DNA from: an uncultured Ruminococcus sp.
GTDB lineage: Bacteria > Bacillota > Clostridia > Oscillospirales > Ruminococcaceae
Assembly: GCA_902787365.1 (NCBI GenBank)
Contig: CADAGC010000005.1
Span: 22,188-86,187, forward strand
Length of the DNA stretch: 64,000 nt
Direction of reading: 5' to 3'
This document shows positions 35,181-37,774 of the stretch, piece after piece. Numbering within the stretch: the first letter of the stretch is position 1; the number at the start of each line of letters is the position of its first letter. A program made the position numbers and the translations under genes. Below the pieces are notes generated by a model. The model did not search any database. It saw only the letters and a list, made by a program, of their open reading frames with translations, and was not told where the DNA came from.

Positions 35181-35222
35181 ACCCCCAAAAGAGCTGCAAC
35201 TCTTTCGGGGGTGCTTTGTTTT
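35181..35222 (+). terminator. Terminator upstream of the toxin locus
   Basis: ACCCCCAAAAGAG/CTCTTTCGGGGGT stem with one mismatch followed by GCTTTGTTTT. Its last 17 bp are identical to the end of the toxin-locus terminator (35478-35494). Confidence 0.7.
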
Positions 35223-35230
35223 GCCTGCGT

Positions 35231-35259
35231 TTGACAAACTGCACTATATATGCTATGAT
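35231..35259 (+). promoter_or_regulatory. Promoter of the Fst-like toxin mRNA (RNA I)
   Basis: TTGACA (35231-35236), 17 nt, TATGAT (35254-35259). Expected transcript start near 35266. Confidence 0.85.
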
Positions 35260-35300
35260 GATTATGCTGTCATACTCCTAATCCCGATAGCGGAAAGGGG

Positions 35301-35321
35301 GGTCAGACTTGTTTATTTTGA
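35301..35321. repeat. Direct repeat a over the toxin start codon
   Basis: GGTCA then ACTTGTTTATTTTGA (35307-35321), which includes the TTG start and reaches the next ATG. The same words occur at 35503-35522 inside the antisense RNA unit. Equivalent in position to DRa of the pAD1 par locus. Confidence 0.8.
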
Positions 35322-35422
35322 TGTATATTCTTTTGCCCGTTGCAACGGGTGTGCTTGCAAATTTTCTTTTTGCTTACATACGCAGGCGCATTCGTAAATG
35401 GCTGAACGGAAGAAGGAAGTAA
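35309..35422 (+). CDS. Fst-like type I toxin peptide (candidate)
   Basis: 37 codons from a TTG start; GGAAAGGGGGG lies about 6 nt upstream. An ATG four codons later would give 33 aa, the size of pAD1 Fst, but it is 18 nt from that site. Sequence features: one hydrophobic membrane helix (YILLPVATGVLANFLFAY) with the Pro and Gly found in Fst-family toxins, then a basic tail (RRRIRKWLNGRRK). It should insert in the inner membrane when translated in excess. The gene has its own consensus promoter, and an antisense RNA starts downstream on the other strand and shares its terminator. Too short for ordinary gene finding. A longer overlapping frame (35164-35397) has no such signals. Confidence 0.75.
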   Translation: MFILMYILLPVATGVLANFLFAYIRRRIRKWLNGRRK

Positions 35423-35443
35423 AACTACCGACAGCAACAGCCT

Positions 35444-35494
35444 AAAACAAAGCCCCCGACCTTACTAGCACTTTGGTCGGGGGTGCTTTGTTTT
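35444..35494. terminator. Shared bidirectional terminator of toxin mRNA and antisense RNA
   Basis: AAAACAAAGCCCCCGACC (35444-35461) pairs with GGTCGGGGGTGCTTTGTTTT (35475-35494) across a 13-nt loop with one bulged base; A runs on one side and T runs on the other allow termination in both directions. Confidence 0.9.
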
Positions 35495-35502
35495 AACCTT
35501 TC

Positions 35503-35522
35503 GGTCAACTTGTTTATTTTGA
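35503..35522. repeat. Direct repeat b in the antisense unit
   Basis: GGTCA directly followed by ACTTGTTTATTTTGA (35508-35522): identical to repeat a except for one missing G between the two words. Confidence 0.8.
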
Positions 35523-35529
35523 CACCTAT

Positions 35530-35558
35530 ATTATACCACGTTCTCTCCTGTTTGTCAA
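35530..35558 (-). promoter_or_regulatory. Promoter of the antisense RNA
   Basis: Minus strand TTGACA (35558-35553), 17 nt, TATAAT (35535-35530); both hexamers perfect. The -35 box overlaps the last codons and stop of the GH36 gene. Confidence 0.88.
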
Positions 35559-37774
35559 GCCCTCACAAAATGCAGAGTCTTTGACACAAAGTCGCCATAC
35601 AGCCCGTCAACGTTCCACATCTTGGCTACATTTATGCCGGCATACATCAAAGCCGCACCCGAAAGCTTCTCCTCGGGCTTTGATTCCTCGTAGTAGTATG
35701 CGTCGGGGTCAAGACCCTTTAGCTTGATGTTTCTCGAGCGCTCGTTTGCTCTGCCTATCACCTGCACAAACTCAAACAGCGCCTCGCTCTTGTCCTTGGC
35801 TACGAACATCCACGCATCCCAGCTGTTGTCGGCAAACATATTGCCAATGCGGTAGTGGTCGCCCGTGCGCACAAGGGGGTTGAATTTCTTGAACTTCTCT
35901 ATCTGTTCGGGAATGGCATTCCTGTCCTCCTCGGGTATGCGGGTAACGTCAAGCTCGTAGCCGAATGTTCCTACAAGTGCTACATCGCCCCTCGTTGCAA
36001 AGGGTGTCACTCTGCCGCAGGAGTGGTTGGGGCAGTCGGAAACGTGCGCACCCATAGCCGAGCAGGGATAGCACATCGACGTGCCGTACTGTATCTTTAA
36101 GCGCTCTATCGCATCTGTGTCGTCCGAGCACCATATCTGCGGGCTGTAGTAGAGCATTCCGGGGTCAAACCTCGCACCGCCGCCCGAGCAGTTCTCTATC
36201 AGTATGTGGGGGTAGTCGGTAGTCAGCCTGTCCATAAGCTCATAAACGCCCAGCACGTATCTGTGCCATATCTCCTGCTGCCTGTCAGCAGGCAGAGCGA
36301 ACGACCCTGCTTCGGTGTGCTGCCTGTTCATATCCCACTTGATGTATTCTATGTTTGCCGAGTCGAGTATCTTCCTCATCATCGAGTAGACGTAGTCTCT
36401 TACCTCTTTTCTCGAATAGTCGAGTATATACTGCTCTCTCGACATTGTAAGCGGTCTGCCCTTTATTTGTATAGCCCAGTCGGGGTGCTCTCTGTAAAGT
36501 AATGAATCGGGCGAAACCATTTCAGGTTCAAACCATATGCCGAATTTCATTCCCAGCTTGTTGACTTCATCGACTAAGTGCTTTAAGCCGCCCTCGAGCT
36601 TCTTTTCATATACAAACCAGTCGCCCAGCGATGAATTGTCCGAGTCTCTGTGCCCGAACCAGCCGTCGTCCATAACCAGCATCTCAATGCCCAGCTTGCT
36701 TGCCTGCTCTGCTATGCTTATGAGCTTTTCAGCCGTGAAATCAAAGTATGTAGCCTCCCAGTTGTTTATAAGTATCGGGCGGCGCTTGTCCTTGTATTCG
36801 CCTCTTATGAGATTGCCCCTGTATAAGTCGTGGAATGTTCTCGACATCTTGCCGATACCGCTGTCAGAGTGTACCATTACCACCTCGGGCGCTGTGAATA
36901 TCTCGCCTGCTTCAAGCTTCCACGAGAAATCAAGGGGGTTTATGCCCATAACAAAGCGTGTTTTCTTGTGCTGTGTGACTTCAGCCTGTGCAAAGAAATT
37001 TCCGCTGTAAACAAAGTTGAAGCCGTAGACCTCGCCGCTGTCCTCATCTGCCTTGTGCTCGCAGAGTGCGACAAAGGGGTTGTTCTGGTGTGAGCTTTCG
37101 CCACGGCAGGAGTCTATGCCCTGCTTGCCGTGATGTAAGCGGCAGCGCTCGACTGCCCTCTCCCTCGCCCACGAGCCGTTGAGGGTCATCATATCAAATT
37201 CGTGAGTGTCAAAATCCACGCAGGCCGAAAGCACACGGGTCAGATATACCGCCTTGTCGCCTGTGTTGCGAACTATTACGCTTCTTGTGATAACGTCAAG
37301 CTTTTCAAACGCCGTGTAGAAAAGCGATACCTCTAAATTCGCAGGCTTGTCCTCCATTATTATCTCTAAGGTGTTGCAGGGGCTTTGCTCTGTCGCAAAT
37401 GTCGCAGGCATACCCTCTAAAGCAGGCTTGCCCTCGGTTATCCTGTAGCCTTTGTATCGCAGGTCGCTTGTGGCTGTGCCGTCGGGCGCTTTTATCTTGA
37501 ATGAGGGTTCTCTGTAATCCCCCACGCCGAATGTCGAATACTCCATAGGCAGCGAATCAAGGAACGAAGCCCTGTCTCTGTTGTTTGTCAAAGGTGTAAA
37601 GGGGCTTTCATCAAGGCGCATAATGCTCGTCATGTCCGTGTCGGGAATCTTGCGCCCGTAGTATACGTGTGCTAAATAGCCGTCAGCAGCCACCATGAGC
37701 ATATATGTGGTGTCTTTTGCATCAAGCTTGAAGCTTTGGCTCTTTTCATCAAATGTGATATTAATATTGACCAA
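35555..37774 (-). CDS. GH36 alpha-galactosidase
   Basis: 739 aa. GH36 layout: N-terminal beta-sandwich, (beta/alpha)8 barrel with the nucleophile Asp in YIKWDMNRQH and the acid/base Asp in IWCSDDTDAIERLK; also MLVMDDGWFG, WFEPEMVSPDS and ENCSGGGARFD. No signal peptide: acts in the cytoplasm on raffinose-type sugars or galactomannan oligosaccharides. The start is unclear: the TTG at 37774 directly abuts AAAGGGG, and an ATT three codons later has better spacing. Own promoter at 37881-37909. Confidence 0.93.
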   Translation of the reverse strand: MVNINITFDEKSQSFKLDAKDTTYMLMVAADGYLAHVYYGRKIPDTDMTSIMRLDESPFTPLTNNRDRASFLDSLPMEYSTFGVGDYREPSFKIKAPDGTATSDLRYKGYRITEGKPALEGMPATFATEQSPCNTLEIIMEDKPANLEVSLFYTAFEKLDVITRSVIVRNTGDKAVYLTRVLSACVDFDTHEFDMMTLNGSWARERAVERCRLHHGKQGIDSCRGESSHQNNPFVALCEHKADEDSGEVYGFNFVYSGNFFAQAEVTQHKKTRFVMGINPLDFSWKLEAGEIFTAPEVVMVHSDSGIGKMSRTFHDLYRGNLIRGEYKDKRRPILINNWEATYFDFTAEKLISIAEQASKLGIEMLVMDDGWFGHRDSDNSSLGDWFVYEKKLEGGLKHLVDEVNKLGMKFGIWFEPEMVSPDSLLYREHPDWAIQIKGRPLTMSREQYILDYSRKEVRDYVYSMMRKILDSANIEYIKWDMNRQHTEAGSFALPADRQQEIWHRYVLGVYELMDRLTTDYPHILIENCSGGGARFDPGMLYYSPQIWCSDDTDAIERLKIQYGTSMCYPCSAMGAHVSDCPNHSCGRVTPFATRGDVALVGTFGYELDVTRIPEEDRNAIPEQIEKFKKFNPLVRTGDHYRIGNMFADNSWDAWMFVAKDKSEALFEFVQVIGRANERSRNIKLKGLDPDAYYYEESKPEEKLSGAALMYAGINVAKMWNVDGLYGDFVSKTLHFVRA

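Follow-up and report, generated by a model that had tools for sequence, protein, structure and literature searches.

Anatomy of the locus

The locus considered here lies at 35231-35558 of the window, by which we mean the whole 64 kb stretch of DNA that was analysed. Its left neighbour is a tRNA-Arg gene that sits behind a methionyl-tRNA synthetase gene. Its right neighbour is a convergent GH36 alpha-galactosidase gene on the minus strand (35555-37774; Pfam Melibiase and Glyco_hydro_36N/C). The dnaA ORF starts 8.4 kb from the module, which is consistent with the preliminary description placing the module about 10 kb from oriC. That description saw a promoter on each strand, a 37-codon membrane-helix gene behind a strong ribosome site, one long bidirectional terminator between the promoters, and a 15-bp repeat with one copy over the start codon and one in the 5' region of the antisense RNA. 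Checked base by base, every one of these elements is present where it was placed.

The promoter of RNA I, the putative toxin mRNA, is P1 on the plus strand (35231-35259). It has TTGACA at 35231-35236, a spacer of 17 nt and TATGAT at 35254-35259. The promoter of RNA II is P2 on the minus strand (35558-35530), with TTGACA at 35558-35553, 17 nt, and TATAAT at 35535-35530. Both promoters and both start sites were placed by these consensus boxes. Promoter-like sites occur at positions equivalent to P1 in homologous modules; this comparison left out the poor matches L044 and L060 as well as five viral modules, two lying at contig ends and three being duplicates. Counting from the -10 box to the terminator, RNA I is predicted to be 229 nt long (35266-35494, plus strand). 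RNA II is the predicted antisense antitoxin, with a start counted in the same way and a fold of its own (80 nt, 35444-35523, minus strand). Sequence and folds place a bidirectional intrinsic terminator common to both RNAs at 35444-35494. The Shine-Dalgarno stretch GGAAAGGGGGG (35292-35302, plus strand) is predicted to lie within a stem. It precedes the putative toxin ORF, which has 37 codons, a TTG start and support from conservation (35309-35422, plus strand). The direct repeat ACTTGTTTATTTTGA has its first copy, DRa, over the start codon of this ORF (35307-35321, plus strand) and its second, DRb, near the RNA II 5' end (35508-35522, minus strand).

Exact 15-mer repeats at a spacing of 120-300 occur at three places in the window. 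These are the direct repeat (DR), the module terminator against a hairpin upstream of the module (35205/35477), and 15567/15846. Only 1 of 100 Markov-shuffled windows has any such repeat. The last place is of separate interest as a 21-bp exact direct repeat, GAAACGTCAAGTGCCTTGCCG, whose copies are 279 bp apart.

The encoded peptide

The start codon is the TTG at 35309 rather than the ATG at 35320. The window and its four closest homologous modules give 5 sequences; all have TTG or GTG as codon 1, and the codon of the ATG is retained in 3, so TTG was taken as the start. All 10 pairs of these sequences have dN < dS, although over 37 codons this is a crude measure and RNA structure also restrains codons. 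The peptide has PVATG in its membrane helix, a tryptophan at position 31 and a tail with a charge of +8. Mean hydropathy is 2.08 over residues 2-24 and -2.41 thereafter. A PxxxG motif with a tryptophan is the signature of the Fst/Ldr superfamily as the available text of a review gives it (PMC7472228). The window peptide has this signature: its TM helix contains the P/D/S/TxxxG motif, and a tryptophan precedes the charged tail.

Sequence models do not name this peptide. At E<=10 it has no match in NCBIfam or PHROGs, and no Pfam model passes its cut-off, the matches to MerF (E 0.059) and DUF6408 (E 0.45) being chance-level. It matches no Fst or Ldr model, including the curated PF13955 and NF033608. 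It must be noted that a match to PF13955 or NF033608 is a practical label and not a defining feature of par/Fst. The PF13955 cut-off was passed in none of 41 genomes, but also in none of 14 control genomes, which makes this a weak test.

Other members of the family come closer to named toxins. Eleven family peptides were scanned. NF033608 Fst weakly matched 2 (best E 2.5e-4) and Ldr_toxin likewise 2 (best 0.0049), the window peptide being among neither. NF047374, the model for C. difficile type I toxins, has weak similarity to 5 of the 11 (best E 2.4e-5) and does not match the window peptide; the one member with bits given scored 13.1 against a cut-off of 60. On sequence grounds this weak similarity may connect the C. 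difficile toxins to the Fst/Ldr superfamily. The window clade aligns with its plasmid and Clostridia siblings at 96.6% probability in a profile-profile alignment. A mixed profile has the LdrD toxin as its best sequence match in the PDB (E 0.0074). The window-clade profile has PepA1 first, which is not significant at E 0.29, followed by photosystem I subunits and then LdrD. PepA1 is an Fst-family toxin.

Folding and pairing of the two RNAs

Both RNAs fold better than expected. RNA I has an MFE of -80.3 kcal/mol (z -3.96), and RNA II (folded over 35443-35526) has a z of -4.16; 1 of 200 shuffles was equally good in each case. The RNA II fold leaves the 5' region with DRb unpaired. In the RNA I fold the 5' arm GCTGTC (35266-35271) pairs with GACAGC just behind the stop codon (35430-35435, both on the plus strand) with a mean probability of 0.997, and the DR is partly in a loop. 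The Shine-Dalgarno sequence is within a stem, with a mean pairing probability of 0.83 over 35296-35302. The extreme 5' end and the ribosome site of RNA I are thus hidden in the predicted fold. A local 5' helix, GCUGUC/GAUAGC, was considered in its place and ruled out, its own predicted probability being about 5e-7.

If the repeat is an antisense recognition element, each start region should fit the repeat downstream of it in the same locus but not the repeats of other loci. This was scored over 90 distinct modules or candidates pooled from all sets. The mean within-locus score is 14.8 and the mean cross-locus score is 7.5. The within-locus score is above the cross-locus 99th percentile in 73 of the 90, although the DR sequences vary among loci. 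By set these are 26/34 (family), 23/24 (viral), 5/6 (plasmid) and 19/26 (class). Self against cross is 13.75 vs 7.29 in the family, 15.4 vs 7.5 in the viral set and 14.4 vs 7.6 in the class. The best of 5000 permuted DR assignments reached 8.94, but such counts are not strict probabilities since the modules are akin and some come from one array or genome. The pool had 97 inputs, from which 2 that were too short and 5 duplicates were removed with no further exclusion; L044 and L153, seemingly chance matches, count as misses. An earlier count of 73/91 had included duplicates and left out the plasmid locus L108, which is a miss in the count of 90. Several of the 17 loci below the downstream threshold seem broken, rearranged or spurious, and some are unexplained. 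Some of the 17 may be real exceptions.

The RNA II/RNA I start duplex was examined by energy in 50 modules, after eleven rows were left out. Cognate duplexes average -32.5 kcal/mol and crossed ones -14.7, and the cognate duplex is the best in its own row in 43 of 50. In the window the 5' part of RNA II pairs with the toxin start region at -27.1 kcal/mol. In the window and its four closest modules the RNA II side copies the start-codon sequence even where that sequence changed.

The helix between the RNA I 5' end and the stop region is also locus-specific. Cognate arms score 18.5 and cross-locus arms 13.8 over 53 modules, and none of 5000 permutations did as well, a count to be read with the same caution. 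The helix has many sequence variants among the 53. The window clade has one 5' helix motif in common and 7 cross pairs score better than the window's own, so the window alone is not diagnostic. Eight of 61 rows had been left out as broken copies or doubtful start sites. The rows for the helix and duplex tests were dropped after the promoter-site comparison had been viewed, and class-level modules were excluded from both tests. In its available text the Fst/Ldr review lists a 5' upstream helix and a stem-loop over the Shine-Dalgarno sequence as conserved par features, and notes that the U-turn motif in the terminator loop is absent from some par homologues (PMC7472228). We do not equate our 5'-to-stop helix with that upstream helix.

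The anatomy, its conservation, the computed locus-specific pairing at two sites and the kinship within the peptide family are what these comparisons show. The relatives vary at just the paired places that an antisense mechanism needs.

Distribution

Within the genus a profile match at E<=1 is found in 5 of 7 genomes, and the best match of each is 1.9e-8 or lower. Modules can be in tandem, with three in genome G003 and two in G006. Of 197 genomes drawn from the GTDB family, 18, belonging to 16 of 125 genera, match at E<=0.01. A broader profile matches 21 of 391 genomes drawn from the class at E<=1e-4. In L006 (G008:C7, about 1400-1500) the start of the toxin gene is, by eye, split by roughly 100 bp of inserted DNA whose ends are inverted repeats. 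From its sequence this insertion resembles a small non-coding mobile element.

Relatives of the window clade occur on mobile elements. Searched with a degenerate DNA pattern, the YYICKWLD branch gave matches in 29 viral contigs. A sibling peptide has weakly scoring matches (E<=1) in 239 of 72,556 plasmid records, of which 182 are Enterococcus. Six plasmid places were inspected, and five have the module. The sixth, L108 from E. faecium, was rejected, as its downstream region is without the DR (7.0) and a toxin-like frame is seen by eye on the other strand. This locus cautions against counting the Enterococcus matches, which make up most of the 239, as homologues in the same sense.

The searches located the window's own clade in this genus and nowhere else. 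A tblastn search with the window peptide gave no match at E<=1 in the 72,556 plasmid records, and the window-clade core pattern is absent from the viral contigs searched, so no match places this clade on mobile elements. Among genome contigs the core pattern occurs in 3 stretches, all from two Ruminococcus sp. MAGs, one from goat omasum and the other from roe deer rumen, in a search that possibly left out records very near the window. This bears out the earlier impression of a Ruminococcus-like genome.

Variation beside the galactosidase gene

The TGA stop of the GH36 gene is inside the -35 box of P2 in the window and in G001, G003 and G006. The module of G002 is 369 bases past the GH36 end and without overlap. 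In G005 there is a GH36 gene with a different neighbour behind it and no match to the module, and no GH36 gene was found in G004. In the window about 31 nt separate the stop of GH36 from the predicted start of RNA II. A terminator does not fit there, so transcripts of the galactosidase gene are expected to end in RNA II. Galactosidase mRNA running through RNA II likely adds antitoxin, and we infer that this read-through tunes the toxin. At parEF0409 a terminator before the antitoxin is likewise absent and mannitol genes adjoin, according to the available text of the review (PMC7472228).

The tandem copies in G003 (contig C82, L019/L130) are informative. Copies 1 and 2 are nearly identical in the promoter, the 5' region and codons 7-37. 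They differ in DRa, DRb and the terminator loop, and each copy matches itself. Their cognate duplexes are -26.4 and -23.4 kcal/mol, while the crossed ones are -13.4 and -10.0. The sequences indicate that these copies switched both repeats together. Tandem copies that differ mainly in recognition elements offer a way to test how toxin mRNA and antisense RNA stay matched while both change.

The same site in G001 has lost half of the module. P2, DRb and the terminator are kept between the tRNA-Arg and GH36 genes (L114, G001:C328, about 1504-1610) and the toxin half is gone. The 5' part of this orphan RNA II is still predicted to form a duplex with the toxin start of the window (-27.4 kcal/mol). 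The C-terminal part of the G001 galactosidase is 98% identical, and an open frame of 248 codons lies between the half-module and the tRNA. The preliminary description had asked that relatives keep both the frame and the start-codon repeat. This holds for the window and its four closest modules but not for G001, which has no toxin half. A hairpin upstream of the window module (35181-35223), compared by eye, looks like a terminator relic of a second module, since its loop is in common with the terminator of G003 copy 2.

The window genome has a second module elsewhere that is circularly permuted (L028, G000:C29, about 1300-1640 on the toxin strand). Its order is terminator, DRb, leftward P2, rightward P1, toxin, terminator. 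P2 and P1 are back to back, and the DR score is 15.5 upstream and 9.0 downstream. A wider family of permuted loci was considered and rejected. The other high upstream scores come from a fragment frame (L141) and a tandem array with its own downstream DR (L040), so there is only one clear case.

One can imagine a scenario that joins these observations. Galactoside use would add antitoxin and its shutdown would free the toxin. The site would be a turnover hotspot in the genus, where tandem modules switch their repeats (and terminator loop) and become mutually blind, loss of the toxin half leaves an orphan antitoxin, and recombination yields a circularly permuted, divergent par. We offer this joint reading tentatively, and think it is the less probable account of the site as a whole.

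Classification and function

We argue, agreeing with the preliminary description on the main points, that 35231-35558 is very probably a chromosomal type I toxin-antitoxin module of the par/Fst type, in which a membrane toxin would be silenced by antisense RNA II. The transcripts, the repression and the toxicity are predictions of this reading. At the sequence level the locus has convergent promoters with a shared bidirectional terminator, and DRa over the start is accompanied by a cognate DRb in RNA II. Its proposed membership in par/Fst is drawn from architecture, peptide motif and weak bridging similarity.

The mechanism would be as follows. P1 would give RNA I, whose 5' end is paired just after the stop codon and whose Shine-Dalgarno sequence is in a stem, making it stable but poorly translated. 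P2 would give the short RNA II. Its single-stranded 5' region is antisense to the toxin start, DRb facing DRa, and its terminator hairpin is complementary to the RNA I hairpin. Pairing at these two sites would keep translation from starting at the TTG. A drop in RNA II would let the 37-aa peptide be made. By analogy with Fst/Ldr toxins it would insert in the membrane and halt growth.

There is some chance, perhaps not a large one, that the peptide instead acts in the membrane as a small regulator, of sugar transport for example, with the antisense control unchanged. The module is chromosomal and a GH36 gene adjoins it in related genomes. The functions of chromosomal par homologues are called obscure in the available review text, and some of these homologues are in sugar loci (PMC7472228). 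However, we reason that the tandem copies, the orphan antitoxin half and the plasmid and viral relatives fit an addiction-like element better than a regulator. It is improbable that the locus is what is left of a mobile module that has decayed or fallen silent and has no function today. The relic-like neighbouring terminator and the G001 half-module do suggest decay at this site, but the window module is intact: both promoters have 17-nt spacers, the 15-bp repeats are exact and the frame is open with dN < dS. A chance ORF with repeats around an ordinary bidirectional terminator would have in its favour that a terminator by itself is what one would expect where a tRNA gene meets a convergent neighbour, but in our view it is refuted by the locus-specific repeat matching in genomes, viral contigs and plasmids and by the homologous peptide family.

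Antisense toxin-antitoxin designs of the par type have been studied mainly in Lactobacillales and Staphylococcus. The window module seems to be a new, intact member of this known kind, on a Clostridia branch and in a lineage where it is seemingly undescribed. The preliminary description called it possibly undescribed, and this is plausible with a qualification. In its available text a review of Clostridia confines its mention of Fst-like sequences to C. bolteae and C. asparagiforme (PMC6563280). The Fst/Ldr review, as available, calls par-like loci ubiquitous in Firmicutes, counts hundreds of homologues and mentions commensal Clostridia (PMC7472228). The string "Ruminococc" is absent from the available text of PMC7472228, PMC6563280 and PMC10903887. 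No named Ruminococcus par/Fst member was found in the literature searched. What is gained is an extension of the par-type design into Ruminococcus and other Clostridia, with a peptide that is unnamed by the models tested.

Comparison with known systems

The preliminary description held that the locus has the exact plan of pAD1 par of E. faecalis. This stands for the architecture as reviews describe it, but the peptide passes no curated Fst model. Both systems have convergent RNAs with a shared bidirectional terminator, DRa over the start, DRb in RNA II, a sequestered 5' end and Shine-Dalgarno sequence, and a PxxxG peptide of similar size (PMC7472228, available text). The window differs in that its peptide is outside the Fst models, its location is chromosomal and its start is TTG. 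Its tail is cationic where that of Fst pAD1 is acidic, and it has W where Fst pAD1 has V, as far as the same text describes them.

LdrD of the E. coli Ldr/Rdl system has the peptide motif and the mixed-profile match given above. Ldr regulation is hok/sok-like in the available review text (PMC7472228), and not convergent with a shared terminator as in the window. The Ldr/Rdl class was therefore rejected for the window on layout: it is convergent, with direct repeats and a shared terminator, and does not have a hok/sok-like arrangement. For the C. difficile type I toxins the comparison is at the level of the peptide model (NF047374) and not of the loci, and the likeness is to the family peptides described above.

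The Lpt locus of Lacticaseibacillus plasmids has the same layout. We read the pLBPC-2 copy directly, which is the reference Lpt sequence in the available text of PMC5608710. It has its own direct repeat, GTTCATGAATTCATTCGAT / GTTCATAAATTCATTCGAT, and by eye the same 5'-to-stop helix, with 5' GTCGCTAC against GTAGCGAC after the stop. Lpt is unlike the window in being on a plasmid and in having another peptide sequence, of 29 aa and with no tryptophan. Lpt inhibits growth in E. coli, according to the same partial source (PMC5608710).

A parallel in setting is parEF0409 of E. faecalis, compared here by its description. Like the window module it is chromosomal, sugar genes adjoin it and there is no terminator before the antitoxin RNA (PMC7472228, available text). 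The sugar genes there are a mannitol PTS, whereas in the window the neighbour is an alpha-galactosidase whose stop codon is overlain by the -35 box. As far as that text goes, the window adds to parEF0409 a second example in which a sugar gene is placed to read into a par antitoxin, and this bears on the role of the chromosomal copies.
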